Below, piece after piece: positions 4,554-64,000 of a DNA stretch of 64,000 nt (position 1 is the stretch's first letter; each line of letters begins with the position of its first letter). The stretch is taken from assembly GCA_014871385.1 (NCBI GenBank), contig CM026423.1:18341690-18405689 (forward strand), written 5' to 3'. A program made the position numbers and the translations under genes. The DNA is from Ceratodon purpureus. Taxonomy: Eukaryota; Streptophyta; Bryopsida; Pseudoditrichales; Ditrichaceae. Under the pieces are notes generated by a model. It made no database searches. It was not told where the DNA came from and saw only the letters and a list, made by a program, of their open reading frames with translations.

Positions 4554-4608
<55 letters not shown>

Positions 4609-14202: not shown

Positions 14203-14212
14203 GTGTGTAAGC
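14203..14212 (+). repeat. Target-site duplication, left copy (GTGTGTAAGC)
   Basis: Ten bases identical to 32026-32035, directly flanking the MULE terminal repeats. A 9-10-bp duplication is typical of Mutator-like elements. Confidence 0.9.
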
Positions 14213-14265
14213 GGGGAAAGTTCGTACGTGAGCGGAGAGCGTAGAGCGGAGAGCGGTGAGCGCAG
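14213..14265 (+). repeat. Left TIR of MULE copy 1
   Basis: 53 bp matching the reverse complement of 31973-32025, identical from GTACGTGAGCGG inward to GTGAGCGCAG. Internally it is built from short AGAGCG/AGAGCGG repeats. About 50 bp further in, the block GACCCTATAACCGTGGA (near 14316) is again shared with the right end. Confidence 0.92.
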
Positions 14266-14983
14266 AATGGAGAGCACAGAATTGACAATTAGCAAAATTT
14301 TCAAAAGCAAAGTAGACCCTATAACCGTGGAAAATTACTAAATTAAGGCTTGATTTTGACCCTTTTTTTAGAAAAAGAGTATATTACCGTGGAAATCAGG
14401 GTTAGCTCTGGTAAGAATTTATTACGTTTGTTCTCTAAGATACAAATTAGGGCTGATGTCATGATGACGTCATGCATATATTTTGTTATATTTCTCATGG
14501 ATTTAGGCAAGATATAATGATCAGGCGTTAAGTTTTAGACCAAACAAATAATTCTTTCATAGGATTATGTAAATGCACAAGGAAAAAAACAAATTTGAAA
14601 GAACGAAAAGGAGGCAAGGTTTGAAAACTTCCTGGAATATTTCAAAATTCGTGTGGTGATATCTAAACTGCTGAAACCAAGATATACCTTGTTAGAGTCC
14701 TTGTCTTCATCGAAGATTACTCTCTCTTCGTAGGCAGCAAAGCATCTTCATTTCAGTGATACAAGTAGGAGATTTTCATCATCAAACAACACTTGGTAAG
14801 CTGGGTTCCAGAGAAGGAGGTCACTCTTGGTTTCTTGAGCTTGTCTCTAGATGGCGTATTTGGATAGTGACACAGTCCTTGGCATGCTGTGCTGTATGCG
14901 AAGGTAGCGTAGGAGTTCGGGGATGTCAATCTGCAAGCTTGCCTGTAACGTTTTAAGACTACAAGAATTCAGTGTGTTGCGCG

Positions 14984-15355
14984 ATGCCGAAGGTGTGTAA
15001 TGCAAGATCCAGGAGGACGAGAGCGGCTGTAGGTTTGCCCCCAAAGGCACCGGCGAGTTATGAGGAGCTGCGGCCGTGGCTGCTGGAGGTGGAGCGCGCC
15101 AGGGAACGAGGCATGGACCTGCCACCGTTTAGGCACATCGGAAGCCTCCATGTTGGTGAAGGTGAATGGCGTTGGACAGTGCTTTGTACCAATGAGCTTC
15201 TCCGTATTATGGAGTTGTCCCTAATCCCGTATCCCTTGCTATCGAACGTCGATGACAATCCAGTTGTTCAGCTGCCCGAAGTGATCATATCGGATGGCGA
15301 AACTTGCTGGTTTGATATGGACAAGAGTTGGACTGTATATCCTTCGAAGGATTAG
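14984..15355 (+). CDS. Conserved 123-aa MULE accessory protein, copy 1
   Basis: Starts MPKVCNARSRRTRAAVG, with a short basic N-terminus, followed by an acidic, Leu/Pro-rich body (SYEELRPWLLEVERARERG) ending YPSKD. The copy at 56038-56409 differs at only about four bases in 372, while flanking and intron sequence differs more. An in-frame stop lies just upstream in this copy, which supports the chosen ATG over a longer N-terminus. I do not recognise a domain. Its place next to the left terminal repeat and its strong conservation suggest a role in the element's life cycle, possibly binding its end; that is inference. Confidence 0.65.
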   Translation: MPKVCNARSRRTRAAVGLPPKAPASYEELRPWLLEVERARERGMDLPPFRHIGSLHVGEGEWRWTVLCTNELLRIMELSLIPYPLLSNVDDNPVVQLPEVIISDGETCWFDMDKSWTVYPSKD

Positions 15356-15868: not shown

Positions 15869-18800
15869 TCACAACATGCTACAGTCGCTACTTTCACTCT
15901 CAGAACTAGATGACTCCGAATCTCCTTCTACCGCCTCGTCATCGACGAATAGAAGGGCCCTGGGATCAAAAGTAGTTGGCCGACTAGGAACATATGTAAG
16001 GGCTCCAGATTGAAACGCCTGTGCTAAGCCCTCTGCGTAGTCCGGAAGTATGAAAGGCTGAATCGGGCTGGAATGAAGACGCCACGATGGAGTGGACTGT
16101 GATGTTGGCCCACGTGGCGGTGTTGATGAAACTACTCTGCAATAGAGAACGGACTGTGGTTACATCGAGTACGTAGAGGTGCAAAGAGAAGCAGTGCTAG
16201 GATATTTTGAACAAAGAATAGAAGACTTACACCACTTATCAGGTCTTGGTCTCTTTGGAGGAGCTTCGTCTGCTGCTGCCGGCCTTGGATGTTTAGGAGG
16301 GCCCATGGCGGATGGTTTGAGAAGGGCGTTGAATATGGCTTCGTCCTCCTCAAAAGCGAGAATGTGACGACCAACAGCCTGGGCGGCCTTGATGGAGGCC
16401 CCTGAAACTCGGAGAGAAACAAAGAAATGAGGTACTCTGGAAAAAACGAGAGGAAAAATGAAGCAAGGATATGGAAGAAGAGTTACCTGTCCCTGCATTC
16501 CAATCAAGGACTATGTCGCCTGGCTTGGACAGCTCCTCAATGATGTTCTGCATCATCTCAGGAGATTTCTCCCTTGGGCCTCTCCACGGCACCTCCCCAT
16601 TCATGAGCTGAGAGTCGGCATCGGTGAAGTTGAAAATGGCATCACTCTCGGTAATATTGAGGAGCCCATGTATCAGGTCTTCCTTCTTCGTCTGGAAGGA
16701 GAAAGTACTGCCACTACGAACGTAGACGCGAATCCAGAACCGCATAGTCTGCAGTCAAGCAGAACTAGTGAGTAAAATTAAGCGGAAGGGTTATCAGTAA
16801 CTAAAGAGAAGGGTATGTTTAGGAAAAGTACCAAGTTCTCGGGGTTCGTAGGAGAAGTGAGGCCGAGGACATTGACGCCCCACCAGTCCTTGAAGAGCAC
16901 GTAGTCACCACCAGCAGCTTCTTCGTCGATATCCTTAGCCAGCTTCTGATCAGTGTTGTAGATGAGGCAGAGGGCACCATCTTTCTGCAGGAAATCATCT
17001 GCAAAACGGAAGATGTCGAACACATAATCCTTGTAGCGAGAGTTCCAAGGCGGAATACTCGTGGGGGGAACGGAAACGGATGGGACGGGAAGATTCTCAG
17101 GGATGTCGGCAATGATCAAGTCGACTCCCAGATGGTTCTCTTGTTTGCACCGGTCCATAACTTCGTTTTCGCGGCCTGCTCCAAACTTTAGGAAACAAGA
17201 AAGGAGAGTTAGTAACTACATAGCGAGTGGAGGTGGCAAAATCCATTAAATGTCAAAATATAGGAACAAACCTTGCGAATGAAGTCTTGAGTCTTGATCC
17301 AATCCGGGTCGCCACCTTTTCTCTCCAGTCTCCTATTTCGCCGTAACATGGAATCCACAGATGAGTTGAAGACGGAAACATGTGTGGAAGTCGAAGCTCC
17401 AGCGGAAGAAGTTGCGTGAGGATATAGTTTGGCTTTCCTCTGCTGAAGGAGACCTCTGGTGATCTGCGAAGCACTGATCGAGGAAGGAGCCGGCGAAGAA
17501 CCTGGAGAAGGGTTCGTAACGACAATACCCGGAGAGGGCTCTGGTGCCTTCTCAGCTGGGGCGGAAGACTCCGCACCAGTTTGTTGCGATGCCTCTGACT
17601 TAGAACGCAGAGATTTTAATCGCTTTCCTCTTCCTCTCTTCGGTGGTGGAGCGGAAGACTGATCCTGCTCTCCTTCACGACCTTCTGCATCATCCGCGGA
17701 GTCGTCCACCACAACCTCACCTCCGTCGTGTAGAGTCTTGACATCCGCCTCTGAGTCAATCGTGAAACCACGAGAGCAATCAAGATACCAGCAGCCCTCA
17801 AGCAAGTGAGGAGATTTGTACCTTTTCAGCTGTTGGGGAGAGTACATACACTGGTCCGAGGTTGTCGACGTCCAAGCAGGGAAGTAGTTAGGGAGCTGCT
17901 GGACCGTGATGGCCCCCTTCAAAACAAGCTCTCGCTTGAAGTACCTAAGTAAACCAATATGTAGAAGGTTAGTATCAAAGTAAAGAGACCTAATTCTCGA
18001 ATTTGAATCTAATTTAAAGGTATGTAACGTACCGGTAAGTAACCCGCTTGACAACCTGAGCGGTTCCAGGAAAAGTAGCAAAAATGGACTTCTTGTCGAA
18101 GGGCTTATCAGCTGACTTTCCAATGAACGTAGGGAAGGCCTTGTCCCACAACAGAATACGTGCACTCTCCACATAATCGCCCGGCTCTTGGACATCTGGA
18201 AATGCCTTCCAATTAATAACGATGTTCTCCGCCTTGCATATGTCCTCAAATCCGTTGATGACGGCTTCCTCCAACTGTATTTCAGAATTCAATTAATTTT
18301 CAATGAGAGAAATTCGCGGAAGAGATGAAAGGATCCGGTCATTGAGAAGGTTTTTAAGAAACTTTACCCCAGCCCAGAATGAAGCCTTGTTCAACCAAGG
18401 GTCGAAGTCGGTATCCTTGAATTCAGGTGGTGGAAATCTGTAGGACATTCGGGAACTCAGAGATGAGTTCCACCACCTCAACCAACGAGCCTTGTATTTG
18501 GCCTCAACGGCCGCTGGAACAATCTTCTGAAGCTTATCGAGGGTCATCTCGGGTTTATTGTACTCACTAAAATGCCGATTAATCTGCAACAAGTAGAGGA
18601 GTTTTAAAAAATATGATCACAAATCTGATGTAGTCAAACGAAATACTGAAGTGAAGCAGGGTCAGGGTCTCACTTCATTGAGGAAGTCGTCACCGTTCTT
18701 GGGATTTGCAATTGCCAAGTACTTAGTAAAGTCCTTCTTCTTAATGGATTCGACCATGTTGTTTATTGCTGCAGTCATGGCATCCCAAACACCAGTCGCG

Positions 18801-21800
18801 GTTTGGTCTTCAATTGCTGTTTTTGTCTTGTAGACTCGGGCAGCTTCGTCAGAAGCAGCCGTGATTTCTCTCTGGAAAACAGATTTAAGAAATGGTAAGT
18901 TTACAAACAAATACAAATCCTTTGTCGATATGGAAGTGTGATGGGGGGAGAAAGAAGTGCTTACACGATAAAGAAACGCGATGAAGACTTTGGTTGGCAA
19001 TGTAAACCAGGATGGATTGGACGGTTTGTGGTTCAAACATAAATGATACTCCGCTGGTGTAAGGAGATCCTTGAACTCCTCCAATTTCATCACACCGAAT
19101 GAGCGAATTCGGAAAAGTTTTGCCGGAATATTACTCTTCACATGATCATTTTCTGTAGACCTGTACGAAAAGACGATGGTTAGTACAATGCATAAAGATC
19201 GAGTTTAACCTGCGTGCAAGCGGAATGGACAAAATAAGGGGTTTAAATCCTCACCAGTTTATGTCGTGCATGGCATGTAGAAGATTTCCCACATGACCTC
19301 GGGGGTCAAGAACAATGCAATGCACAGAAATGTGCCATGCCTGATCTTCGCTGTGATGTTTGTTGATATGTCTGTACCATGCCGCAAGGCGATGGTTACC
19401 TTCCCAGACATAGAACATCTTCCCAGAAAACTGCTTCAAATCCGAGTCGGCCAAGAGCTCATCTTCGAAAGCATCATTCGCTTTGTGCCAACAAGGGCTC
19501 CACTTAGCCTTGGTCTCCTCTGTGACGTCGGATGTCTTCTCTTCGTGGTCGTAGATGGAAATGTACATGACTCGGTCTCCATCTCTATACCCTTTGACAA
19601 ACTCGCGCTCCAAATGCTGAACTCCCATTTCTCCTATAGGTCTCACTCTTGCCATAGAGATCATTCTGCAAAGGGGAACTAGGATACGCGACTTCGTCTT
19701 TGGAAGTATTCGGAGCTTATTGATGACGCCTATGGAGTCTTCCTTGTGTTGTACCCGATGTCCCAATTCACTGTCCACTACATTCGTCAAATCAGGAGGA
19801 CACGATGGCGCTGGCAACATATCCTGTGTCTGAGTTACCTGCCAGAAGTCATGCATTTTCAAATTTGATCCGAAGACAAGGATGAGAATAAGTAAAACAA
19901 TTAGGAAGATGAATAAACCAATAGCTTTCAGAACTGATACATCTCATTTGCAAAACCAACTCTAAACCCAAACAATAGGAAGTAGTACATAGGCCACTAT
20001 GTACGTGGAGCACGGCTATAATACTCCCTAGCCTGTCTACAATTCCAATGACGGCGCCTCCTCCAAAAACGCCTGGTCTGTTGGACAGGGCATGGTAGTA
20101 TCGCCGGGAGGGCGAAGACAACATGGGCTGGCCTCCTCACTCTAATAGGCGAGGAAGGAGAAGGTGGAGACATCGGCGGGGTACCAAGCCGTGGAGAAGT
20201 AGGCATGTAGCCTGGGGATGTAGGCTCATAGACAGGAGACGTAGGCATGTACTGAGGGGAGTGGACCTCGAGAGGTCCACTACCTACAACTACAGGGCTT
20301 CCTAAATCACACCTACATAAATGGGGCTGATCAAATGAATCCGAGAGGTCGGAAACATTGATCACTGAGATAGGGGAACTGATGGACAAGGGTGCATCTG
20401 AGAATACCTGCAAGCATAGATACAAAGACAATGTCAATTTACCATTATAGTTTTCAAAACTACTTAAGAGAGATTTAATAAAAATGCAATGTTGACTACA
20501 AAAGCAAAAATGATTAAATTACCTCAGTTTCTGCAGGAGTTGGACCATCACCTTCAGTCGCAGTGAGTTGATCTGTGAACTCCTATATTACAAACAGCAA
20601 ACCACTTATAAGCTTCAAAAAAAAATAAGTAGCAATCCAAAAAAAAGAATTCGTCTTGAGGTGCAAAACTTCTATATTCCCCATCCCAAACTCCCACATT
20701 TTATACAAAATTATCACCCCCCGCCCCCTTGCATTAATGGCCCTGGCAGTCGCATCCCACTCCAATATGCCCTCGCGGCCTCCCCCCACCTCCCCAAAAC
20801 CCCACATTCTGTACCGAATGTACATCCCTTGCCCCCTTGCATGAATGGCCATGGCAGTCGCATCCCACTCCAATGTGCCCTCGCGGCCTCCCTCCACCTC
20901 CCCAAACGCCCACATTCTGTACCGAATGTACATCCCTTGCCCCCTTGCATGAATGGCCATGGCAGTCGCATCCCACTCCAATGTGCCCTCGCGGCCTCCC
21001 TCCACCTCCCCAAACGCCCACATTCTGTACCGAATGTACATCCCCCGCCCCCTTGCATTAATGGCCATAGCAGTCGCATCCCACTCCAATGTGCCCTCGC
21101 GGCCCCCCCCCACCTCCCCAAAACCCCACATTCTGTACCGAATGTACATCCCCCGCCCCCTTGCATGAATGGCCATGGCAGTAGCATCCCACACCCATGT
21201 GCCCTCGCGGCCTCCCTCCACCTCCCCAAACGCCCACATTCTGTACCGAATGTACATCCCTTGCCCCCTTGCATGAATGGCCATGGCAGTCGCATCCCAC
21301 TCCAATGTGCCCTCGCGGCCTCCCTCCACCTCCCCAAACGCCCACATTCTGTACCGAATGTACATCCCCCGCCCCCTTGCATTAATGGCCATGGCAGTCG
21401 CATCCCACTCCAATGTGCCCTCGCGGCCCCCCCCCACCTCCCCAAAACCCCACATTCTGTACCGAATGTACATCCCCCGCCCCCTTGCATGAATGGCCAT
21501 GGCAGTAGCATCCCACACCCATGTGCCCTCGCGGCCTCCCTCCACCTCCCCAAACGCCCACATTCTGTACCGAATGTACATCCCTTGCCCCCTTGCATGA
21601 ATGGCCATGGCAGTCGCATCCCACACCAATGTGCCCTCGCGGCCTCCCCCCACCTCCCCGATATTTGTATTTCCCACATTCTGTACAGAATGTGGGTCTG
21701 CCCGCCCCCTTGCACTCTTGGCCATGGAAGTCGCATCCCATTTGAATGTGGCTTCGCGGCCTCCCTCCACCTCCCTCCTTCGCGTATTACCCACATTCTG

Positions 21801-24469
21801 TACAGAATGTGGGTCTGCCCGCCCCCTTGCACTCTTGGCCATGGCAGTCGCATCCCATTTGAATGTGGCGTCGCGGCCTCCCTCCACCTCCCTCCTGCGC
21901 GTATTACCCACATTCTGTACAGAATGTGCGTCTGCCCGCCTCCTTGCACTCTTGGCCATGGCAGTCGCATCCCATTTGAATGTGGCGTCGCAGCCTCCCT
22001 CCATCTCCTTCATATTTGTATCGCCCACATTCTGTACAGAATGTGGGTCTTTACTCCCCCTTGCCTCCGTGGCCATGGCAGTCGCGTCCCACTCCAATGT
22101 GCCCTCGCGGCCCCCCCCCACCTCCCCAAAACCCCACATTCTGTACCGAATGTACATCCCCCGCCCCCTTGCATTAATGGCCATGGCAGTCGCATCCCAC
22201 TCCAATGTGCCCTCGCGGCCTCCCTCCACCTCCCCAAAACCCCACATTCTGTACAGAATGTACAACCCGCGCCCCCTTGCCTTTGTGGCCATGGCAGTCG
22301 CATCCCACTCCAATGTGCCCTTGCGGCCTCCCTCCACCTCCCCAAACGCCCACATTCTGTACAGAATGTACAACCCGCGCCCCCTTGCCTCCGTGGCCAT
22401 GGCAGTCGCATCCCACTCCAATGTGCCCTCGCGGCCTCCCTCCACCTCCTCAAACGCCCACATTCTGTACAGAATGTACAACCCGCGCCCCCTTGCCTCC
22501 GTGGCCTTGGCAGTCGCATCCCACTCCAATGTGCCCTCGCGGCCTCCCTCCACCTCCCCAAACGCCCACATTCTGTACAGAATGTACAACCCGCGCCCCC
22601 TTGCCTCCGTGGCCATGGCAGTCGCATCCCATTCCAATGTGCCCTCGCGGCCTCCCTCCACCTCCTCAAACGCCCACATTCTGTACAGAATGTACAACCC
22701 GCGCCCCCTTGCCTCCGTGGCCTTGGCAGTCGCATCCCACTCCAATGTGCCCTCGCGGCCTCCCCTCACCTCCCCAAACCCCCACACTTTGTACCGAATG
22801 TTTATCCCCCGCCCCTTTGCCTCCGCGGCCATGGCAGTCTTCTCCCACTCCAAAGTGCCCTTGCGGCCTCCCCTCACCTCCCCAAACCCCCACATTCTGT
22901 ACCGGGTGTACATCCCCGGCCACCTTGCCTTCGCGGCCATGGCAGTCGCATCCCACTCCAATGTGCCCTCGCGGCCTCCCCCACCTCCCCCACCTTCGCA
23001 TTACCCACATTCTGTACAGAATGTGGGTCTGATCCCCCCCTTCCACTCGCGGCCGTGGCAGTCGCGTCCCAATCCAATGTGCCCTCGCGGCCTTCCCCCA
23101 CTTCCCCCTCTTCGAGCTTCTGGGTCGCGGCTGCGTCTGGCATCGGAATCGCAACTCCCAGCTACCCACTTGCAGCAGTGACAGCAGGGTCTTCCGCACC
23201 TTCAACCTCACACAATGCGGATCTATCTGCTACTCACATTCAATCCCGAAGTACCCATCACGCGGTCTCCCACATAACAGCATCAACAAAACCCATAACC
23301 CTTACCTCGTCAGTGGCCGGTGCTCGATCGGATTCCCCGCCCTGGCTCTCAATCTCTTCCTCCCCACGCTCAGGTCCACGCTCCCTCTCCATCTCTTCCT
23401 CCCCACGGTCAGTTGCCGCGGATGCGAGTGTGGATGCTGCCTCACAGGTACTCCTCCCACGAGTTAGTCCTCTCCCTCTCCCACGAGCACCTGCACCTCT
23501 CCGTCGACCACGGCCTCTATCCACATTCACAATTTCTTCACACTCTATGTCTTCTACCGGCCCCGCCATCCAACCCTGCGATTGGTTGTCATCCACACTC
23601 ATCTGAGATGGGCTTCCCGGGTCCCCTCGACCCTCTCGTAGTGCAACTAAAGCTTCCCCACCTTCGCCCGCCTCCATAATTTCGCGTCTCGCTCTACGAG
23701 CCAGTCTTATCAATGTCTCAGGATCTGACTCCTCGCCCGCATTCACTTCTGGCGTCTTTTCCTCTACAACCTCTTGTTCAATCCTAAACCAATCGACAAT
23801 CTGCACAAATATTTAAGACTATGACGAGTATGGATACATCGAATCTCTTATTGTAAACCACCACTCCGTTTGATGCGCCATCAGAACTCTAAACAGTAAA
23901 ATATTTGAATGCGAAGACATTACATATAAATGAAGGTAACTCTCAAAAATACATTACTTACACTTAGCATATTATAATGAATCGATTATGAAACTTACCA
24001 CATCCGTGTTAGAATGGTCGCCCGACTGAGAATGCGTCCCTCTTGTGGAACACTCCTTGAATCCGAAAGACGGTTGTGGTGTCTCCAAAGTCGGACTGGA
24101 ATTAAACCCTAGCCCTTCCGTCATGTCTACGTGTTTTTCTCCGCTACTTATTACCTCATGCTCCTCATGCTCAACCGCGGTATCCTCTAAAACCTCATCT
24201 TTCACCTCTACAATGGACTCTAGTATGAGTTTACGGATGCTACAAAATTTAATTGCCACCGGCAGCCCCGCTCCTCGAACCTTCAGAGGTGCACTCAAGA
24301 GGTTGCCTTTCGACTTTGACTTCCTACGTAATTCTCTCCTCTTCCTCGCTCTCCTGTTCGTAAAATCTGTACCGTATGCCTTTCTTCTAGGTTTAGGAGT
24401 GACATAAGTGGAGGGAGCTGACCCTCCACTCTCCTTCATGTGTCTAACTAACGAGAGAACTCTCCTCAC
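15869..24469 (-). CDS. MULE cargo gene, copy 1: CTD-like heptads + ParB/Srx-like domain + beta-class-type DNA methyltransferase-like domain
   Basis: About 14 exons by splice signals: 23999-24469, 23306-23800, 20523-20582, about 19997-20407, 19255-19838, 18965-19160, 18674-18871, 18367-18583, 18033-18274, 17272-17944, 16832-17185, 16487-16748, 16231-16401, 15869-16137. Exon 1 is basic; exon 2 has an RGRGRRRGAGARGRGRG stretch. Exon 4 has three YxPTSPx heptads and an Arg-rich tail. Exon 5 has a ParB/Srx-like core (VWEGNHRLAAW, HCIVLDPRGHVGNLLHAMHD). Exons 11-13 follow beta-class order: motif-IV position LIIADIPEN, then motif I GDIVLDWNAGTGN, then QAVGRHILAFEEDEAIF. Motif IV lacks the usual PPY/PPW, so catalysis is doubtful. 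The tail is Ser/Asp-rich (SESSSSESESSDCSML). The exon 4-5 junction does not resolve in phase; exons 1-4 could be a separate gene. Confidence 0.7.
20189..20251 (-). other. Three RNA-polymerase-II-CTD-like heptads (copy 1)
   Basis: The minus strand encodes YMPTSPV, YEPTSPG and YMPTSPR in exact 7-residue register, followed by a PPMSPPSPSS run. The Pol II CTD consensus is YSPTSPS; Tyr1, Pro3, Thr4, Ser5 and Pro6 are kept and Ser2 is replaced by Met or Glu. Copy 2 has four such heptads at 61238-61321. Confidence 0.85.
20720..23095. repeat. GC-rich minisatellite, about 108-bp unit, in an intron of the methyltransferase-like gene (copy 1)
   Basis: About 20 head-to-tail units averaging roughly 108 bp, each with a CCTCCACCTCCCC-type stretch, CACATTCTGTACNGAATGT, a GCCCCCTTGC block, GGCCATGGCAGTCGCATCCCA and TGTGCCCTCGCGGCC. 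Because 108 is a multiple of three and stops are rare, long ORFs appear on both strands, but these are repeat artefacts. Units carrying ACAGAATGTG contain a perfect 20-bp palindrome, CACATTCTGTACAGAATGTG. Unit order shows higher-order duplication: two nearly identical multi-unit blocks lie at about 20940-21270 and 21270-21600. It lies between exons 2 and 3 of the cargo gene. Confidence 0.9.
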
Positions 24470-25236: not shown

Positions 25237-28200
25237 ATGGGGATGGTCTGTCTGTACGCCCAAGGCATGGGCATCCCTCTAAGGTTTCGCGTAGATGACG
25301 ATGGTCTAGCTACGGTGTCCTCTCTTCGCCTCAGTCTCAGATTCCATTTTCGTGAGGATTCCATCAGTATAGAGGAGGAGATCTTTGATGACGTTACTGC
25401 CGAGGTTACCCACACCCTCGGGCAACCTTCAGTGAGAGATGAGAACAACATGTTGCAGTGGAGACTCCTCCCTGGATCCTATAGAGTCTATGGTCTTACT
25501 GATTCTCTTATGGCTGCATCCACTGAGATCCTCACCCCCCGTCGCTCTTCTACTTGCACAATTCAGACTCCCTTACCTCGTGATGTCAAGGTCAAAGTCG
25601 AGCCTGGTACCGAGACTTCAGATGTAGAGAAACCTCCTCCGACCGTCATATCTCTCTCTTCTGATGACGAAGTCAGTCCCGTGAAGTTGGTGCCTATGGT
25701 CCATGCAGATGCTCCTCCTTCCAATGTGTCTCCTCCATTGTCCCAGGTCACAGTTAGCATTGTTCCGCTCCTTCAAGAGATTGCTAAGACACGTGGGTCC
25801 AAAAACATTTTGAAGAAGATAGACTATTCCACTATTAGACACGAGAGAGTAGAGTACTTGCCTGCGAAGTTTGATGGTCCGGTTCTTTTTGAGTTGCCCC
25901 CAGCTGCTGCAGGATCCTCTAAGCTCGCCGCCAAGTCTATGCAGGGAATGGACAAACGATACGACGGACACTTGTGGACCAAGACCATCACAACAAACAT
26001 CAAAAACGACTTCGGACTCTCTTTTCGAAGTTCCACCTGCGTCGGATGGCTCCGGTGCAGCAACCAGGAGTGTGACTTCCTCAAGCGTGTTCCCAAGATC
26101 TTCGAGGTCAACGAGACTGAGTTCGAAGGCTGTACCCTGCAAGCTTTTGTCATGGACCAGCCTCCTCCATCTGACTCGACGCTAGTATGCAAGGTATGTA
26201 AAGAACCTCCGTCATGTGTAGCTACATGCGAGGCTAAGATTTATTACGTTATGGGCAAACCGAATCAGACTAGAGCGTGTATTCACATAGGAACACATCA
26301 TCATCCAGTGAAAGTAGGAGACTACAGAGACTCTAAAGCAGAGATTAGTAGCTTAATAGAAGAGCAGGTAGAGATGAACAACAAAGCAACAAAGAGCGCC
26401 GTTGTCCTGGAGGCGAGCAAACTCCTCATCGGGAGCTACCTCCTACAGCCCGAGGATGCACCACCGAGGAAGCTGACGATGGAGGAGCTGGTTCCTGTTC
26501 TGGATCGATGCAAAGACATGGCGTCACCAAACATCCGCAACAAAGTCGCCACCTTCAAAAGATTCAACAGGTACGGAATCATGGACGGTATCACCAAGCT
26601 CCGTGGTAACAGTCTCTGGGCGTATGTCCAGGAGAATAGGTTTCCTGGTCAGGGAGCTATGCGTGACAAAGTCTTCGTCTTCAAGATGTCGGAGGTCGGG
26701 CCGGGAAGTGGTGTCGACTTGGTCAGCCGTATGCAAGCTGGTGGCGACTTGGAGAACGCATGGATCATGTTCGACCATGTCAAACGCGTCAAAGACTGGT
26801 CGACGATGGCGTGCCATGTGTACGACGCCACCTACTGCCGCGTGATGACAATCGCCACTTGCGACATGCAGTCCGAGGACACGGACGCCCAGCTCGTCTT
26901 CTGGAAAAACCTGAACCTGGTCATGGAGATCAATGGCGTTGCAGCGCCGAACTTCAAGGGGTTCATGGCGGATAACGCACAGGCGAATTGGAATGCAGTG
27001 CGAATCCTTTACGGCAATGGCAACAAAGAGGACCCAATGGAGGACCGGGAGAGGTCGTGCTTGTTCCACTAGACTCAGAACATGGTGGCGTATACGCAGA
27101 AGCACTTCCCCGAAGAACTCTGGGAACAGCACAAGAAGATGTGCACTCAGTACAAGAATGCGACCAGCATGGCAGAGGCGGAAACTCTGTACCACGCGTT
27201 GCGAGCATGGTGGGCATCCACCGGGGTCGTTGGCGAGAGCGGGCTCATCAAACTCGATCAGTGGCTGTCATTCTGGCACCACCGCTTCCGCCAGTGGGGG
27301 GGATTCATGACCGAGGTATTATCTCTGCACTCTGTTTTCATGTTTTTGATACTGGTTTCCTAGCCCTAACCTCGAAACCTGTAATCCGTGAATCTAACGG
27401 CACCTACTGTCAAATCTGCAGAAATTCACGAAAGAAGAACTGACAGAGATGCCCACCTGTAACCTGGCCGAAACAGTTCACAACAAGTGGCTCCAAGCCT
27501 CAGGAAACAATGGGAGCGACCTGTACGTTGCTACCGTGGACGATTTCGTTCGGGCTTTTCTACAGGTTGTCAACTACTATCAGTTCCTCAAAGGTGACGT
27601 CGGCGGAACTGGACCATCCAAAAAGGAACTCAGGCTCCGGATGGCTGAACGCAACGCGAAGAAATGGGGAAATCCTACACTGCTCGACAAGCCCATGCTC
27701 GATATGCCAGGCGCGGATGAGTTCTGCACTCGTCAGCCTATCATGCCTGGAGCGGAAGTCTTCGGTTCACAGAAGCGAAAAGCCGACGTCCTTATCGGAG
27801 CTGACGAAGAGTCTCATCGCCCGGACAAGACAAACTTCTCACGCCCAAGAGGCCCAAGACGTGCCGTCAGGGCTCGCCCTATGCAGATGCCCGTCATTGA
27901 GGAAGACGACTCCGAACACGACACCGAGGTACAATGTACGCAACCTCCTGCCCAGGAAGTTCATTCCCCTTTACCTTCACCTGTGAACAAGGGCGGCATT
28001 CGCCATGTCAACGCGGTTGAAGAAACCAAGGTGGACGTAAAGGAGTGGCACATTTCCAGACTTCACAAACTTTCTGCAAAGTGCTGCTGGGCCCAAAGAG
28101 CTGAAACGAAGAAGAAGTGCACTGAGAGAATCGTCAGAGGGCCCCATTGCACAGCTGCACCGACCTACACTGGGCTGTGGACTAACTATCGTAGGAACAC

Positions 28201-28915
28201 TGTTGAGAAGACAGAGTTCTTCTTCTGCTCCGACGATATTGAGCGCTGCGTGAAAGGCTCTAAGCGCAAGTGGGTAGCGCACTACTCAAAGGACCAGGAA
28301 TTCCCCTCCATTCCAGAGGTCTGGCCAGTGAAACTAGGTACTAATCTAAAACTGACTGAGATTCTTGCCCTCGAAGCAGCAGGCTTTCAACTTCCGCCTA
28401 AAAAGCCGGTCTCCCCAAGACGCCTCTTCTCCTCTGCCCCGCCCCCTGCGAATCTCAACTCGGTGCCAGTCCCTGCAGACGCTGACCGCTACCCAGGGAA
28501 GAGAGAGGGCAAGATGGTGAAGCGCACTGCCACTCGTCCCAATCCGGCGCAGCGACTATCCATGGGCTCCTCCGAGTCTCTCAAAGCGCGCCTCCGTTCC
28601 GTCACCATGATACCTGAGCCGGGCCACGGTTGCATCATTGGGCTGGATTCGGGCGTCGCTCCTCACATCACACGTTACCAGATTACCATCAGTTCTTACC
28701 CTGGTTGCACTTGCCCAGCATTCAAGAAGACGATGACTACGTTCAAAGGCAGGACTCAGTTCACGTATTGTAAGCACCTTTACTACATACTCTTGAAGGT
28801 CTGCAACCGTGATCCCGAGGCCGAGCTTTTCATCCATGCGCCTACCTTTAGCTTCAACGAGGTCAAGCTTCTCCTAGAGAGTGGAATCTTGCGTCACCCC
28901 TTGGCGAAGAAGTAG
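25237..28915 (+). CDS. Mutator-like transposase with SWIM zinc finger (one in-frame stop in this copy)
   Basis: Two exons, 25237-27315 and 27422-28915. The ATG at 25237 (MGMVCLYAQG) is chosen because the upstream in-frame extension to 25159 is low-complexity. The N-terminal half has an acidic SLSSDDE segment and a Cys/His region (CSNQECDF, CKVCKEPPSC, CIHIGTHHH) typical of a MULE DNA-binding part. The catalytic core has the first Asp in HVYDATYCRVM (about 26824) and the second in FMADNAQANW (about 26971), followed by the family's CLFH-x-TQ motif. At 27070-27072 a TAG replaces the Trp expected in CLFHWTQ, and the frame then continues unbroken. The C-terminal SWIM finger has CTC at about 28709 and CKH at about 28770. 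Total is about 1190 codons, long for a MULE transposase. Confidence 0.88.
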
Positions 28916-29821: not shown

Positions 29822-29849
29822 TAAATTTTTTTTAAAAAAAAAAAAAATG

Positions 29850-29887
<38 letters not shown>

Positions 29888-31811: not shown

Positions 31812-31972
31812 AATTATTCCACGGTTATAGGGTCAATAAAATTACTAAAATTAGTATTTTTACAAAAATATACTGAGAATATTCGAATCTTCTAATTTTA
31901 TATTTTATTTTTAGTAAAAAAAGTGCTATTTTTAGGATCTGTCCCCCACTCTGTGCTCTCCGCTCTCCAAAT

Positions 31973-32025
31973 CTGCGCTCACCGCTCTCCGCTCTACGCT
32001 CTCCGCTCACGTACAAGCTACGTCC
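31973..32025 (-). repeat. Right TIR of MULE copy 1
   Basis: Reverse complement of the left terminal repeat at 14213-14265, differing mainly in the outermost dozen bases. The inner block GACCCTATAACCGTGGA recurs at about 31812-31830. Confidence 0.92.
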
Positions 32026-32035
32026 GTGTGTAAGC
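32026..32035 (+). repeat. Target-site duplication, right copy (GTGTGTAAGC)
   Basis: Identical to 14203-14212. Confidence 0.9.
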
Positions 32036-55267: not shown

Positions 55268-55320
55268 GGGGAAAGTTCGTACGTGAGCGGAGAGCGTAGA
55301 GCGGAGAGCGGTGAGCGCAG
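55268..55320 (+). repeat. Left TIR of MULE copy 2
   Basis: Same 53 bp as 14213-14265, and the inner block GACCCTATAACCGTGGA also follows. Confidence 0.92.
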
Positions 55321-56037
55321 AATGGAGAGCACAGATTTGACAATTATGAAAATTTTCAAAAGCAAAGTAGACCCTATAACCGTGGAAAATTACTAAATTA
55401 AGGCTTAATTTTGACACTTTTTTTAGGTAAAGAGTATATTACCGTGGAAATTAGGATTATCTCTGGTAAGAATTTATTACGTTTGTTCTCAAAGATACAA
55501 ATTAGGGCTGATGTCATGATGACGTCATGCATATATTTTGTTATATTTCTCATGGATTCCGGCAAGATATAATGATCAGGCGTTAAGTTTTAGATCAAAC
55601 AATTAATTTTTTCATAGGTTTATGTAAATGCAAAAGGAAAGAAACAAATTTCACAGAACATAAAGGAGGCAAGGTTTGAATACTTCCTGGAATATTTCGA
55701 AATTCGTGTATAATATCTGAACTGCTGAAACCAAGATATACCTTGTTAGAGTCCTTGTCTTCATCGAAGATTACTCTGTCTTCCTAGGCAGCAAAGCATC
55801 TTCATTTGAGTGATACAAGTAGGAGATTTTCATCATGAAACAACACTTGGTAAGCTGGGTTCCAGAGAAGGAGGTCACTCTTGGTTTCTTGAGCTTGTTT
55901 CTAGGTGGCGTATTAGGATAGTGACAAAGTCCTTGGCATGCTGTGCTGTATGCGAAGGTAGCGTAGGAGTTCGGGGATGTCAATCTACAAGCTTGACTGT
56001 AACGTTTGAAGACTACAAGAATTCAGTGTGTTGCGCG

Positions 56038-56409
56038 ATGCCGAAGGTGTGTAATGCGAGATCCAGGAGGACGAGAGCGGCTGTAGGTTTGCCCCCAAAG
56101 GCACCGGCGAGTTATGAGGAGCTGCGGCCGTGGCTGCTGGAGGTGGAGCGCGCCAGGGAACGAGGCATGGACCTGCCACCGTTTAGGCACATCGGAAGCC
56201 TCCATGTTGGTGAAGGTGAATGGCGTTGGACAGTGCTTTGTACCAATGAGCTTCTCCGTATTATGGAGTTGTCCCTAATCCCGTATCCCTTGCTATCGAA
56301 CGTCGATGAGAATCCAGTTGTTCAGCTGCCCGAAGTGATGATATCGGATGGCGAAACTTGCTGGTTTGATATAGACAAGAGTTGGACTGTATATCCTTCG
56401 AAGGATTAG
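56038..56409 (+). CDS. Conserved 123-aa MULE accessory protein, copy 2
   Basis: Same protein as at 14984-15355 with only a few substitutions (for example NVDENPVV against NVDDNPVV). Here the frame is also open upstream to 55810, unlike copy 1, where a stop interrupts it; the shared ATG before PKVCNARSRR is therefore preferred. No recognised domain. It lies between the left terminal repeat and the 3' end of the oppositely oriented cargo gene. Confidence 0.65.
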   Translation: MPKVCNARSRRTRAAVGLPPKAPASYEELRPWLLEVERARERGMDLPPFRHIGSLHVGEGEWRWTVLCTNELLRIMELSLIPYPLLSNVDENPVVQLPEVMISDGETCWFDIDKSWTVYPSKD

Positions 56410-56922
56410 TACTGTGAAGTCTAGTGAGGTGATCGAATACAATCCTTAAGATTTGGTCATTCATTGGATCTACATACGAGTATTCCAGCATGATGGTTTA
56501 AGATAGTATAGATGATTCTAGAAATAAGAAAAGAAAAAGCAACTACACGAAATGGTCTTAGAAGTCCGTGGAATATCTCAGAGTTCGTGTACAATAATGG
56601 AGTAGAAGAAACCAAGATGTACACCAACTCGAGAATAGGTAACATGGCTATGCAAATGTGGGATTCTGAATGAGTAAAATATAATTAACAGCACAATATT
56701 ATATTTAAGCCTTTATTTTGTAACATTTCATTCTTCGTATTATATTTTGAGCATTACAGTTGTGACTTTTCATACTTTACAAACACGGAGACAAATTGGA
56801 CATGAGAATTATAACAAGTTTAGGTTCAGGGAAGTAGAGTAGACGAAGAATTACCCAATGAAATCCAATTAAATCAAATCAAATCAAATGAAAACAACAA
56901 TAGACCGAAGCCTCCTTCAACC

Positions 56923-59900
56923 TCACAACATGCTACAATCGCTACTTTCACTCTCAGAACTAGATGACTCCGAATCTCCTTCTACCGCCTCGTCATCGAC
57001 GAATAGAAGGGCTCTGGGATCAAAAGTAGTTGGCCGACTAGGAACATATGTAAGGGCTCCAGATTGAAACGCCTGTGCTAAGTCCTCTGCGTAGTCCGGA
57101 AGTATGAAAGGCTGAATCGGGCTGGAATGAAGACGCCACGATGGAGTGGACACTGCACTTGGCACACGTGGCGGTGATGCTGAAACTACTCTGCAATAGA
57201 GAACCGACTGTGGTTACATCGAGTACGTAGAGCTGCAAAGAGAAGTAATGCTTGGATAATTTGAACGTAGAATAGAAGACTTACACCACTTATCAGGTCT
57301 TGGTCTCTTTGGAGGCGCTTCGCCTGCTGCTGCCGGCCTTGGATGTTTAGGAGGGCCCATGGCGGATGGTTTGAGAAGGGCGTTGAATATGGCTTCGTCC
57401 TCCTCAAAAGCGAGAATGTGGCGACCAGTAGCCTGGGCAGCCTTGATGGAGGCTCCTGAAACTCGAAGAGAAACAAAAAAATGAGAGACTGTGGTAAAAA
57501 CGAGAGGAATAATTCAGCAAAGATATGCATGAATAATTACCTGTCCCAGCATTCCAATCAACAACTATGTCGCCGGGCTTTGACAGCTCCTCAAGTATGC
57601 CCTGCATCATGTCAATGGATTTCTCCCTTGCCCCTCTCCAGGGCACCTCCCCATTCATGAGCTGCGAATCCACATCGGTGAAGTTGAAAATGGCATCACT
57701 CTCGGTAATGTTGAGGAGCCCATGTATCAGGTCTTCCTTCTTCGTCTGGAAGGAGAAAGTACTGCCACTACGAACGTAGACGCGAATCCAGAACCGCATA
57801 GTCTGCAGTCAAGCAAAACTAGTGAGTAAGATTAAGCGGAAATGGTTATCAATCAGTAAAGGGAAGGGTATGTTTAGGTCAATTACCAATTTCTCGGGGT
57901 TCGTTGGAGAAGTCAGGCCGAGTACATTGACACCCCACCAGTCCTTGAACAGCACGTATCCACCAGCAGCAGCTTCTACCTCGATATCCTTAGCCAGCTT
58001 CTGATCAGTGTTGTAGATGAGGCAGATGGCACCATCTTTCTGCAGGAATTCATCTGCAAAATGGAAGATGTCGTACAAATAATCCTTGTAGCGAGAGTTC
58101 CAAGGCGGAATACTCGTGGGGGGAACGGAAACGGATGGGACGGGAAGATTCTCAGGGATGTCGGCAATGATCAAGTCGACTCCCAGATGGTTCTCTTGTT
58201 TGCACCGGTCCGGAACTTCGTTTTCGCGGCCTGCTCCAAACTTGAGGAAACAAGAAAGGAGAGTAAGTAACTACAGAGCGAGTAGAGGTGGCAGAATCCA
58301 TTAAATGTCAAAATATAGGGACAAACCTTGCGAATGAAGTCTTGAGTCTTGATCCAATCCGGGTCGCCACCTTTTCTCTCCTGTCTCCTATTTCGCCGCA
58401 ACAGGGAATCCACAGATGAGTTGAAGACGGAAACTTGTGAGGAAATCGAAGCTCCAGCGGAAGAAGTTGGTTGGGGATATAGTTTGGCCTTCCTCTGCTC
58501 AAGGAGACCTCTGGTGATCTCCGAAGCACTGATCGAGGAAGGACCCGGTGAAGAAGTTGAAGAAGGCTTCGTAACCACATTACCCGGAGAGGGTTCTGGA
58601 GCCGTCTGTTCTGGAGCGGAAGACGCTGCACCAGTTTGCTGTGAAGCTTGTGAATGTGATCGCAAAGATTTCAGTCGCCTTCCTCTCCCTTTCTTCGGTG
58701 GAGGAGCCGATGATTGGTCTTCAGGGCCATCGTCATCTTCAGGACCGTCCACCGTCTCTTCGACCATCACCTTACCCCCATCGTGTAAAGTCTTGATGTC
58801 CACCTCAGAGTCAATTGTGAAACCGCGAAAACAATCAAGGTACCAGCATCCCTCAAGCAAGTGAGGAGATTTGTACCTTTTCAACTGCTCTGGAGAATAG
58901 ATACACTGGTCCGAGGTTGTCTCTGTCCAAGAAAGAAAGTAGTTGGGGAGCTGGTGGACCGTGATGGCCCCCTTCAGAAGAAGCTCTCGCTTGAAGTACC
59001 TAAGGGAAGAAATTTAGAAGCTTAGTAGCATAAGAAGCCATAGCGAATTAAAATATGCAAATGCAGTACAGTTTCGTGACATACCGGAATATAACCCTCT
59101 TGACAACTTGAGCGGTTCCAGGGAATTTAGCGAAGTTGGACTTCTTGTCAAAGGGCTTCTCAGCCTTCTTCCCAATGAACGTAGGGAAGGCCTTGTCCCA
59201 TAACATAATACGTGAACTCTCCACAAAGTCGCCCGGCTGTTGAACATCAGGAAATGCCCTCCAATCGACATTGAGGTTCTCCGACTTGAATATGTCCTCG
59301 ACCTCGTTGATGACGGCTTCCTCCAACTGTAATACAAAATTCAAATAAGTACCAATGAGAGAAGAATTAAGAAAGCACTTTCTAATTGGTAAGGCATATT
59401 TCGAAACCATACCCCAGCCCAGAATGAAGCCCTGTTCAACCAGGGGTCGAAATCAGTATCCTTGAATCCAGGCTTTGGAAATCTGTATGATAGTCTGGAA
59501 CTCAGGGATGAGTTCCACCACCTCAGCCAGCGAGCCTTGTATTTCGGTTCAACGGCCGCCGGACAGATCTTCTGGAGCTTATCGAGGGACATCTCAGGTT
59601 TAGAGTTCTGACTGTAATGCCGATTGATCTGCCAGGAGTATAGAAGTATTAGAAACCATAATTGCATAAGGTTGTAACAATTGAAAATACTATATGAAAT
59701 TAGGTGAAGGTGTCACCTCATTCAAGAAATCGTCACCGTTCTTGGGATTTGCGATTGCCAAGTACTTGGTGAAGTCCTTATTCTTGATCGAGTCCACCAT
59801 TTTCTCAGACGCTTCACTCATGATTTCCCAAACCGCAGATGCAGTCTGTTCATCCGCCGGTGTCTTCTCCTTGTAGGCCTTAGCTGCTTCATCCGAGGCC

Positions 59901-61639
59901 ACAGCAAGTTCCCGCTGTAGAAAAGTAACCATTTTTTAGAGAAATCAAAAACGAATGAAATAAAACTTTCAAAGACTGAAAGGAGATAAACCGAGCGAAG
60001 ACAGAGAGGAGGTAGAAATTACTCGGTAAAGAAATGCGATGAAAACTCGAGTAGTCAAGGGAAACCATGATGGGTTCGGTGGCTTGTTCTTCAAACAAGC
60101 ATCGTATTCTTCAGGTTTGAGGAGATCTTTGAAATCCTCCAGTTTCATCATTCCGAATGAGCGGATTCGAAACAATTTCGCTGGGAGATTACTCTTCACG
60201 TGGTCATTCTCAGTCGACCTGAATATTAAATTAGTAAGTACGTTTGATGAATTATAGTAGAGAAAGACTTGAAATGGACAACATATACTCAGGATTTTTG
60301 AACTTACCAGTTGATGTCGTGCATTGCGTGCAAGAGATTGCCCACATGGCCACGGGGGTCAAGTACAATGCAATGCACAGGGATGTGCCAGGATGGGTCG
60401 TCCGCATGATGCTGGTTGATATGCCGGAGCCAAGCGGAGAGACGATGGTTACCCTCCCAGACATAAAACATCTTGTGCGAGAATTGCATCAACTCCTCGT
60501 CCCCAGAGATCTCATCATCAAAACGATCACTCGCTGCTCTCCATAAAGGGCTCCAAGTGGCCATAATATCCGCCGTCACATTCTTCGTTTGCTCTTCAGT
60601 GTTGTACATGGAGATGTACATGACGCGGTCGCCATCTCGGTATCCCTTAACGAACTCACGCTCCAAGTGTTGTACCCCCATTTCACCCACTGGTCTAACC
60701 TTGGGCATAGGGATCATCCTGCATAGGGGCACAAGCATTCGCGACTTATGCGTGGGTTTGATCCTGAGGTTGTTGATGACGGCGTTGGTGTCCAGCTTGA
60801 ACTGTATACGATGCTGCAGTTCCCCTTCCATAGCAGTCTTCAAGTCAGTTGGACAAGATGGTTTGGCCGACACATCTTGTGTTTGAGTAACCTGCCAAGA
60901 GGAGTGCGAATTAAGGGAGGAATCACAATCAATGGATGTCATGCAAAGAAGACAATAATGTAAAAGAAAGTAACAATATGTCTTCATACTGTCATATCTT
61001 TAGTAACAAGTGTAACAAGTAAAACGGCATCTGCGCTTAGGGTAACTATCTACGTGATGCTCGACTATAGTACTCCTTAGACTGTCTACAGTTCCAGTGA
61101 CGGCGCCTCCTCCAGAACCGCCTGGTTTGCTGAACCGGGCACGGTAGAATTGCCGGTAGAGCAAAAACCACATGGGCAGGCCTTCTGACTCTGATAGGCG
61201 AGGAAGGAGAGGGTGGAGACATAGGCGGTGAGCCCTGTAGAGGCGAAGTGGGCATGTAGGCCGGGGACGTAGGCTCATACACTGGGGAGGTAGGCATGTA
61301 CACGGGAGAAGTAGGCATGTACTGTGGAGAATGGACCTCGAAAGGTCCACTATCTCCAACGAAAGGGTTGGCTACATCACAGGTACAATAAGGCTGATCA
61401 AATGAATCCGAGAGGTCGGAAACATTGATAACTGAAATGGGGGAGGTCGCGGACATCTCAGGAGCATCTGAATATACCTAGAGTAGAAGAATTTAAAAAA
61501 AGAGGATTATTTTCCACCTTTGAAAGAGTTGTAAGCAATAAATTAAAAAAAACACAAGTAAGAAGAACTAGTAATGTACCTCGGTCTCAGCTGGAGTTGG
61601 GACTTCACGTTGGCTTCCCATATTATCCTCAGAAGACTC
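56923..61639 (-). CDS. MULE cargo gene, copy 2 (CTD-like heptads + ParB/Srx-like + methyltransferase-like), first exons outside the window
   Basis: Exons match copy 1: 61580-61639, about 61046-61477, 60308-60891, 60023-60218, 59717-59914, 59413-59628, 59085-59326, 58327-58999, 57887-58240, 57541-57802, 57285-57455, 56923-57190. The ParB/Srx-like core has VWEGNHRLSAW and HCIVLDPRGHVG. The methyltransferase part again has LIIADIPEN at motif IV and GDIVVDWNAGTGN at motif I. By eye the C-terminal methyltransferase exons and the heptad exon are about 90% or more identical in protein to copy 1, but the ParB-like exon and exons 6-9 are clearly less so, with introns differing. All exons remain open, which suggests selection on protein sequence. 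The 5' exons lie beyond 64000. Confidence 0.7.
61238..61321 (-). other. Four RNA-polymerase-II-CTD-like heptads (copy 2)
   Basis: The minus strand encodes YMPTSPV, YMPTSPV, YEPTSPA and YMPTSPL in exact 7-residue register, one heptad more than copy 1, followed by the same PPMSPPSPSS run. Confidence 0.85.
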
Positions 61640-61907
61640 CTAATTCATAGACATAGAAATTGACTATGAATGAGAAATCAACGTGAAAGACAAATAAATG
61701 TGACAAAGCAGTCATCCAACCCCCGTCCAAAACAAACGAATACGACTAACCTAGAATACTAGGAGCTCGAGTCAAAGAACAGGCACACTACAGAATTTAA
61801 ACACATTATCAGAAACGAGTTTAAAAAATTGGGGCCATCATTAGTACAGCTTTAAAGCAGTACCTCCAGCGGGGGGGAATCGAACCCAGTACTCTCTTCA
61901 AGCAATC

Positions 61908-64000
61908 ATGGCCTCATCGACCCCGCCCGAGGGCAGGGCCTCCGCCCCTCTCTTCTCATCTGGTGTGCCGCGGCCCTCTGTCGTTGCCGACAGAGGGCTC
62001 TAGCAACCACAATAACAAAAAATTTAAATTGCAATCATGGCCTCATCGACCCCGCCCGAGGGCAGGGCCTCCGCCCCTCTCTTCTCATCTGGTGTGCCGC
62101 GGCCCTCTGTCGTTGCCGACAGAGGGCTCGAGCAACCAAATTTTAAAAAATTTAAAATGAAATCATGGCCTCATCGACCCCGCCCGAGGGCAGGGCCTCC
62201 GCCCCTCTCTTCTCATCTGGTGTGCCGCGGCCCTCTGTCGTTGCCGACAGAGGGCTCGAGCAACCAAATTTTAAAAAATTTAAATTGCAATCATGGCCTC
62301 ATCGACCCCGCCCGAGGGCAGGGCCTCCGCCCCTCTCTTCTCATCTGGTGTGCCGCGGCCCTCTGTCGTTGCCGACAGAGGGCTCGAGCAACCAAATTTT
62401 AAAAAATTTAAATTGCAATCATGGCCTCATCGACCCCGCCCGAGGGCAGGGCCTCCGCCCCTCTCTTCTCATCTGGTGTGCCGCGGCCCTCTGTCGTTGC
62501 CGACAGAGGGCTCGAGCAACCACAATAACAAAAAATTTAAATTGCAATCATGTCCTCATCGACCCCGCCCGAGGGCAGGGCCTCCGCCCCTCTCTTCTCA
62601 TCTGGTGTGCCGCGGCCCTCTGTCGTTGCCGACAGAGGGCTCGAGCATCCAAATTTTAAAAAATTTAAAATGAAATCATGGCCTCATCGACCCCGCCCGA
62701 GGGCAGGGCCTCCGCCCCTCTCTTCTCATCTGGTGTGCCGCGGCCCTCTGTCGTTGCCGACAGAGGGCTCGAGCAACCAAATTTTAAAAAATTTAAATTG
62801 CAATCATGGCCTCATCGACCCCGCCCGAGGGCAGGGCCTCCGCCCCTCTCTTCTCATCTGGTGTGCCGCGGCCCTCTGTCGTTGCCGACAGAGGGCTTGA
62901 GCAACCACAATAACAAAAAATTTAAATTGCAATCATGGCCTCATCGACCCCGCCCGAGGGCAGGGCCTCCGCCCCTCTCTTCTCATCTGGTGTGCCGCGG
63001 CCCTCTGTCGTTGCCGACAGAGGGCTTGAGCAACCACAATAACAAAAAATTTAAATTGCAATCATGGCCTCATCGACCCCGCCCGAGGGCAGGGCCTCCG
63101 CCCCTCTCTTCTCATCTGGTGTGCCGCGGCCCTCTGTCGTTGCCGACAGAGGGCTCGAGCAACCACAATAACAAAAAATTTAAATTGCAATCATGGCCTC
63201 ATCGACCCCGCCCGAGGGCAGGGCCTCCGCCCCTCTCTTCTCATCTGGTGTGCCGCGGCCCTCTGTCGTTGCCGACAGAGGGCTCGAGCATCCAAATTTT
63301 AAAAAATTTAAAATGAAATCATGGCCTCATCGACCCCGCCCGAGGGCAGGGCCTCCGCCCCTCTCTTCTCATCTGGTGTGCCGCGGCCCTCTGTCGTTGC
63401 CGACAGAGGGCTCGAGCAACCAAATTTTAAAAAATTTAAATTGCAATCATGGCCTCATCGACCCCGCCCGAGGGCAGGGCCTCCGCCCCTCTCTTCTCAT
63501 CTGGTGTGCCGCGGCCCTCTGTCGTTGCCGACAGAGGGCTCGAGCAACCACAATAACAAAAAATTTAAATTGCAATCATGGCCTCATCGACCCCGCCCGA
63601 GGGCAGGGCCTCCGCCCCTCTCTTCTCATCTGGTGTGCCGCGGCCCTCTGTCGTTGCCGACAGAGGGCTCGAGCAACCAAATTTTAAAAAATTTAAATTG
63701 CAATCATGGCCTCATCGACCCCGCCCGAGGGCAGGGCCTCCGCCCCTCTCATCTCATCTGGTGTGCCGCGGCCCTCTGTCGTTGCCGACAGAGGGCTTGA
63801 GCAACCACAATAACAAAAAATTTAAATTGCAATCATGGCCTCATCGACCCCGCCCGAGGGCAGGGCCTCCGCCCCTCTCTTCTCATCTGGTGTGCCGCGG
63901 CCCTCTGTCGTTGCCGACAGAGGGCTCGAGCATCCAAATTTTAAAAAATTTAAAATGAAATTATGGCCTCATCGACCCCGCCCGAGGGCAGGGCCTCCGC
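61908..64000. repeat. Minisatellite, about 128-bp unit, in an intron of the cargo gene (copy 2)
   Basis: At least 16 nearly identical units of 128-129 bp running off the window. Each has a GC-rich half (GCCTCATCGACCCCGCCCG, GTGTGCCGCGGCC) and an A/T spacer that alternates between two versions, AACCAAATTTTAAAAAATTT and AACCACAATAACAAAAAATT. Each unit contains a perfect hairpin CCCTCTGTCG-TTGC-CGACAGAGGG. Overlapping ORFs in all + frames are artefacts of the repeat. The unit is unrelated to the 108-bp unit in copy 1 but occupies the same intron. Just before it, the minus strand at 61877-61888 has a B-box-like GGGTTCGATTCC. Confidence 0.93.

Follow-up and report, generated by a model that had tools for sequence, protein, structure and literature searches.

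The locus analyzed here raises the question of why a large DNA transposon of Ceratodon purpureus carries an intron-rich accessory gene with similarity to DNA methyltransferases, and what the product of this gene may do for the element. A sequence-only reading had described a MULE of 17.8 kb whose cargo joins a ParB/Srx-like domain to a methyltransferase and could mark the element's own DNA. We analyzed the window, i.e., the whole stretch of 64,000 nucleotides, to which all positions refer. The presence of a transposon with a conserved methyltransferase-related accessory gene is close to certain. Our overall reading, which falls slightly short of an even balance, is that a large MULE-like transposon encodes an accessory protein, ParB-like and beta-class methyltransferase-like, that would recognize the element's own repeat array and counteract silencing.

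The element extends from 14213 to 32025 (17,813 bp), in agreement with the size proposed before, and has terminal inverted repeats (TIRs) at its ends and 10-bp target duplications outside. The TIRs share a perfect core of 43 bp (14224-14266 and 31972-32014), and their outer 10 bp are imperfect. Removal of the element and one duplication in silico yielded a single open frame of 645 aa spanning the junction, showing that this copy (copy 1) inserted into an open frame. The window also contains a second copy (copy 2), and the left end of the element is confirmed by the homology between the two, which sets in precisely at 14213 and 55268. The features of the element outside the accessory gene are as follows:

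14203..14212, no strand: left target-site duplication GTGTGTAAGC, the same 10-mer being found at 32026-32035
14213..14290, plus strand: left TIR with 7-bp GAGCGGA-type repeats, 43-bp perfect core against 31972-32014, start of the homology between the copies
14984..15355, plus strand: ORF A, 123 aa, with 120/123 residues identical to the copy 2 counterpart at 56038-56409
25237..28915, plus strand: transposase gene, with one exon to 27315 and one exon at 27422-28912 ending in a SWIM-like CTC...CKH
31947..32025, minus strand: right TIR, inverted-repeat match to the left end
32026..32035, no strand: right target-site duplication GTGTGTAAGC, joining the flank
55268..64000, no strand: copy 2 of the element, truncated at the end of the window, with E5-E14 at 60891-56923

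We refer to the element as MULE-like on the basis of its TIRs, a SWIM-like CxC...CxH string in the transposase, and the length of the target duplication, which at 10 bp lies within the range of 8-11 bp given for MULEs in PMC6446971. The string was read by eye as a SWIM-type zinc finger, for which the Pfam profile gave no match. The MULE assignment made earlier is thus backed by these three features, but not by profile searches: no Pfam family, PF10551 included, matched the transposase in pieces, joined, or with X at the stop (E up to 10), and the PDB yielded nothing better than E 1. Moreover, an in-frame TAG (27070-27072) is located directly after SCLFH in copy 1, the frame being open on both sides, so that this copy is probably unable to make full-length transposase.

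Pfam also gave no match for ORF A, for a minus-strand open frame of 155 aa within the element (29172-29636), and no significant one for both pieces of the 645-aa target frame (12611-14202 joined to 32036-32368), in which a Cys-rich RING-like stretch was noticed by eye. On either side of the region lies one of a similar pair of receptor-kinase-like genes (4092-8359 and 46458-50320; DNA blocks 69-84% identical), and a Pkinase match was obtained in Pfam for one piece of these flanking genes.

The accessory gene is located inside the element on the minus strand, opposite to the transposase. Its exon model was obtained by aligning the two copies, exons being the conserved blocks amid diverged or unalignable introns:

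23999..24439, minus strand: E1, with the first ATG of the model (24439); open frame, GT donor, no counterpart in view
23306..23800, minus strand: E2, Arg/Gly-rich; open frame, GT/AG, no counterpart in view
20523..20582, minus strand: E3, 60 nt, its phase fitting both E4 and E5; 60-nt counterpart at 61580-61639 in copy 2
19997..20407, minus strand: E4, with a stop at its end in both copies and Pol II CTD-like heptads (YMPTSPV); tail dN 0.031, dS 1.13
61046..61477, minus strand: E4 of copy 2, with its own stop, for comparison with E4 of copy 1
19255..19838, minus strand: E5, putatively ParB-like, with GNHRLAAW (GxxR); dN 0.198, dS 2.14, dN/dS 0.09
18965..19160, minus strand: E6; dN 0.111, dS saturated
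18674..18871, minus strand: E7; dN/dS 0.08
18368..18583, minus strand: E8; dN/dS 0.16
18033..18274, minus strand: E9; dN/dS 0.28
17272..17944, minus strand: E10, linker containing basic as well as Ser/Pro-rich stretches; dN/dS 0.27
16832..17185, minus strand: E11, with motif IV ADIPEN (DPPY in relatives), aligned with TDPPYN of phage fusions; dN/dS 0.64, from few substitutions
16487..16748, minus strand: E12, with motif I VLDWNAGTG; PF01555 above cut-off, hhalign match; dN/dS 0.17
16231..16401, minus strand: E13, remainder of the motif I region; dN/dS 0.30
15869..16134, minus strand: E14, acidic C-terminal tail of the same length in copy 2; dN/dS 1.08, from few substitutions

The comparison bears out an intron-rich gene. 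All ten exons from E5 to E14 are equal in length between the copies, the splice sites in each copy are GT donors (9/9) and AG acceptors (10/10), the introns are short (83-108 bp), and the frame is free of stops in both copies up to a common terminus, ...SDCSML. The gene had been drawn up to 24469, but the model begins with the ATG in E1. As described before, VWEGNHRLAAW (E5), ADIPEN (E11) and VLDWNAGTG (E12) are encoded on the minus strand with motif IV preceding motif I; only the final N of the reported VLDWNAGTGN has to be dropped, because it is intron-encoded (the exon ends in GGGACAG before GTAACT, and the protein continues with GASIK).

Selection was estimated by NG86 from copy 1 versus copy 2. 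The dN/dS ratio over E5-E14 is 0.21, with values of 0.08-0.30 in seven of the nine exons for which it is defined (E5, E7-E10, E12 and E13), and the substitutions between the copies in E5-E7 number 61, 47 and 164 at codon positions 1, 2 and 3, respectively. These patterns show that the accessory gene is under purifying selection. E14 is the exon with the least certain coding status; its acceptor CAGAG was chosen since the nearer CAG leads to an immediate stop. No significant Pfam match was found for E6-E10.

A single joined model including E4 was also considered and rejected, as its frame is broken, and E4 was then handled as an alternative last exon. The conservation of the E4 protein up to the stop in both copies suggests that it is either the end of a separate upstream gene or an alternative last exon. 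We lean slightly towards two genes, namely a gene X (E1-E4, 468 aa) that has CTD-like heptads and ends at the E4 stop, and an independent ParB-like/methyltransferase-like gene whose start lies immediately ahead of E5. Besides the stop and conserved tail of E4, this arrangement is favored by in-frame ATGs found ahead of E5 in both copies, at distances of 18 and 51 nt, the one at 19856 being the start codon if a gene of its own opens with E5, and by the size of the E5-E14 product (1059-1071 aa), which is near the 1104 aa of a similar protein from Ectocarpus. However, E3 is also phased with E5, skipping of E4 would give a protein of 1385 aa, and the residues ahead of E5 are unconserved save for WQ. 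The YMPTSPV-like heptads of E4 number three in copy 1 and four in copy 2, the Arg-rich tail is kept up to the stop, and the Pfam family Rpb1_R scores 17.7 bits, under its cut-off of 20.3. The divergent spacer between the gene beginning with E1 and the transposase (24791-24882) contains two 46-nt arms that are 85% complementary without gaps.

Copies 1 and 2 are 84% identical over 6,263 aligned bases, a comparison of two copies from one window and thus a small sample, with the right end of copy 2 lying beyond it. Their identity is mosaic: in bins of 400 bp it amounts to 90-98% at 14213-17412, 80-82% up to 18612 and 67-72% up to 20600, and dS inside the accessory gene ranges from 0.04 to more than 2. 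Such a spread within one gene points to parts with different ages of separation, suggesting recombination or conversion between element lineages. Copy 2 is found inside a 622-aa frame (53418-55286) with two CCHC knuckles, gag-like by eye, which suggests that the element inserts into other transposons too.

The methyltransferase-like part proposed for the protein was recovered by profile search. PF01555 (N6_N4_Mtase) scored 39.1 bits with copy 1 and 31.8 bits with copy 2, compared with a cut-off of 26.7, the match being limited to the motif I half (profile positions 163-218 and 164-218 of 221). NCBIfam and PHROGs agree on a methyltransferase at the sub-equivalog level, with PHROG methyltransferase families down to 7.7e-11, and CcrM and DpnA were found in the PDB at E ~0.002. 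When the whole E5-E14 protein was aligned by hhalign with 51 phage ParB-methyltransferase fusions (E 5e-4, probability 31%), ADIPEN was paired with TDPPYN and VLDWNAGTG with VLDTFGGSG, motif IV again standing before motif I. The methyltransferase region alone reached E 1.5e-4 and a probability of 52% in a profile-profile comparison in which 0/100 column shuffles were as good, and the best local stretch comprised motif I only. No relatives of this region were detected by tblastn at E 1e-3 in viral_contigs and genome_contigs. Taken together, these searches support the C-terminal part as a homolog of beta-class amino-methyltransferases.

The catalytic motif IV of beta-class N4/N6 amino-methyltransferases follows the pattern [DNS]PP[YFW], and normal methylation of bases is in doubt once its aromatic residue is lost. 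Motif IV reads DIPE in both Ceratodon copies, outside this pattern and in contrast to TDPPY in 51/51 phage fusions examined, although the copies are 96% alike in this exon and are not independent witnesses of the change. Motif I is likewise modified, with DWNAGTG versus DPFxGSG and its F altered. With DIPE instead of DPPY, active DNA methylation by the accessory protein is doubtful, and a non-catalytic or altered-substrate role appears as likely as real 6mA/4mC writing.

The ParB/Srx domain, in contrast, was not borne out by profile search. Nothing ParB-like was found for the E5-E14 protein in Pfam, NCBIfam, PHROGs and the PDB, tblastn against phages and plasmids gave no ParB-type match, and E5 had no relatives in viral_contigs and genome_contigs by tblastn at E 1e-3. 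Our own ParB profile matched E5 at E 0.13, with 19/100 shuffles as good and with higher scores for 6/13 other windows of this protein; since the query consisted of two sequences only, these tests are weak negatives. Two AlphaFold2 predictions had pLDDT values of only 34.8 and 33.5 and lent no support to a ParB fold. E5 of both copies contains GNHR, and GxxR is the P motif (box II) of the ParB-CTPase fold as described in PMC12704722; a box-II matrix scored E5 no better than shuffles (3725/5000 as high for copy 1). On the strength of this motif, kept in both copies, and of the same two-part label given to the Ectocarpus protein, we consider a ParB-type fold in the N-terminal region somewhat probable. 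Bacterial ParB recognizes parS via an HTH domain adjoining the ParB fold, according to the same paper (PMC12704722).

Beside the gene, each copy contains a tandem array of palindromes:

20685..23107, no strand: copy 1 minisatellite located between E2 and E3, with a palindrome of 18 bp; 22.0 copies, unit range 108-117 bp
61902..64000, no strand: copy 2 minisatellite with a palindrome of 24-26 bp, located beyond E3, as is the copy 1 array; 128-129-bp units

The copy 1 array consists of 22 units, mostly of 108 or 117 bp, and has 21 matches to ACATTCTGTACAGAATGT at up to three mismatches, ten of them perfect, with none elsewhere in the window. Judged by palindrome pairing, ten units are perfect (9/9 pairs), nine have 8 pairs and three have 6. 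Copy 2 contains at least 16 exact occurrences of CCCTCTGTCGTTGCCGACAGAGGG up to the window end, again with none elsewhere in the window. The palindromes of the two copies are unrelated in sequence, yet they occupy the same place beside the gene, and the putative ParB-like exons near the arrays rank among the most diverged between the copies. The GGCAGTCGCATCC stretch of the copy 1 unit is about as conserved as its palindrome. As several frames of the copy 1 array are open owing to its units of mostly 108 or 117 bp, a coding repeat was considered; this role was set aside because the units of copy 2 measure 128 or 129 bp.

Cargo of this kind is already known from algal transposons. The 21.5-kb element Sola1-1_Ec32 of Ectocarpus carries, opposite its transposase, a gene for a ParB-like plus methyltransferase protein of 1104 aa, for which its authors propose self-modification, and the same paper cites green and red algal transposons with such proteins (Iyer 2011, Petroll 2025) (PMC12477816). 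The claim that no such cargo had been described was therefore too broad, but in the open-licence literature we found no MULE or plant case, nor any palindromic arrays associated with such genes. Compared by published description only, the Ectocarpus and Ceratodon elements are both giant DNA transposons in which a gene opposite the transposase encodes about 1.1 thousand residues with a ParB-like label and an N4/N6 methyltransferase-like module. Broken transposases, as in copy 1, are frequent in giant families (PMC12477816). The Ceratodon element differs in its MULE-like vehicle, which is neither Sola1 nor EnSpm, in its motif IV (DIPE) and in its palindromic arrays, which are different in copy 2; the main text of PMC12477816 does not mention palindromes or minisatellites. 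What is new here is thus the MULE-like vehicle, the altered motif IV and the arrays differing between copies.

Phage and bacterial fusions of ParB-CTPase with N6_N4_Mtase (L009 and 50 relatives) share with the Ceratodon protein the beta-class methyltransferase fold by profile alignment and an N-terminal GxxR string (PMC12704722). Their ParB part is recognized by Pfam and their genes are intronless, whereas the Ceratodon gene has introns and an unrecognized ParB part, and DIPE where DPPY is intact in 51/51 fusions. The N4CMT of bdelloids resembles the Ceratodon gene as a bacterial-type amino-methyltransferase linked to transposons in a eukaryote, but is described as a host gene that silences transposons, is fused to a chromodomain and is not transposon-borne (PMC8885841). 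VANC of the Arabidopsis VANDAL MULEs is a MULE-borne non-transposase protein which, like its motif, varies between families (PMC5735166, PMC10398659). A VANC-type feature is present here, in that the non-coding DNA of the element contains tandem repeats in which a motif specific to it is amplified. The VANC motifs are of 8-9 bp, with palindromes unmentioned in the account of PMC5735166, and no methyltransferase-like module is named for VANC there. Pfam yielded neither a VANC-like nor a DUF match for the proteins of the Ceratodon element.

The arrays could be ordinary intronic minisatellites, located in gene X if there are two genes, in which palindromes merely favor expansion and no protein is bound. 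Such repeats are common, and the palindrome of the copy 1 consensus is only moderately unusual, as 35/1000 shuffled units had a best inverted repeat as good. However, this was the case for only 3/1000 shuffles in copy 2 and for 0/1000 with a perfect copy 1 unit, picked as the best, and unrelated palindromes at a matching place in both copies are not readily accounted for. Mean identity in copy 1 is 0.949 in the palindrome columns versus 0.846 in the rest of the unit (4/91 windows as high), and 0/11 variable columns of copy 2 fall within the 26-bp palindrome (~0.07 by chance in a hand calculation). We regard ordinary minisatellites as a serious contender, just short of even. A decaying captured host or bacterial gene without function for the element, by contrast, is very improbable: the transposase of copy 1 is broken and the comparison of the copies reveals little constraint on E14 and E11, but the frames are open in both copies and dN/dS is low in seven of nine exons, spanning saturated to recent divergence.

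If the gene is functional, its protein could be an active writer that places 6mA or 4mC on the element it binds, as a permissive or identity mark, similar to the suggestion of the Ectocarpus authors. The beta-class motif order and the GxG of the SAM motif are retained, as are the Asp, the third-position Pro and the following Asn of motif IV (DIPEN versus DPPYN), and selection acts on the gene; the Glu that in both copies replaces the aromatic residue of all 51 phage fusions examined, however, makes such a writer unlikely. A pseudo-enzyme, whose methyltransferase-like module would bind SAM or DNA without catalysis while the protein serves as a DNA-binding scaffold or competitor, has better prospects, since DIPE and DWNAGTG replace DPPY and DPFxGSG although the exons are open and conserved. 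Yet an altered motif IV is no proof of lost activity, and E11 and E12 remain constrained across a short divergence, so that we regard this explanation as possible rather than probable.

In the reading that we prefer, the ParB-like region would act as a family-specific reader of the array of palindromes next to the gene that encodes it, and the methyltransferase-derived module as an effector that gives the element a shield or mark against silencing by the host. By binding the array of its own element, the accessory protein might thus work like VANC of Arabidopsis. That the array is the cognate site of the protein is a tentative proposal; given such binding, an effect on silencing would be fairly probable. 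The most far-reaching version is a parS-like self-recognition in a eukaryotic transposon, in which each family would have its own array of palindromes and a ParB-like reader to match it, with a methyltransferase-derived module fused to the reader, and array and reader would co-diverge, the ends and the 3' half of the gene being homogenized by recombination. This would represent an independent, non-VANC route to family-specific anti-silencing or copy identity, and we consider it rather unlikely as a whole.

If only the accessory gene holds, the known algal cargo is extended to a MULE-like vehicle and to a version whose catalytic motif has changed. Should the array prove to be the cognate site, a partition-type and DNA-modification module from bacteria would have come to serve self/non-self recognition in a eukaryotic transposon, a convergence with the VANC system of Arabidopsis. 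The two arrays in one window would then allow a direct test of each protein against each array, and the recurrence of ParB-like plus methyltransferase genes in giant algal transposons and in the Ceratodon element would have a reason.
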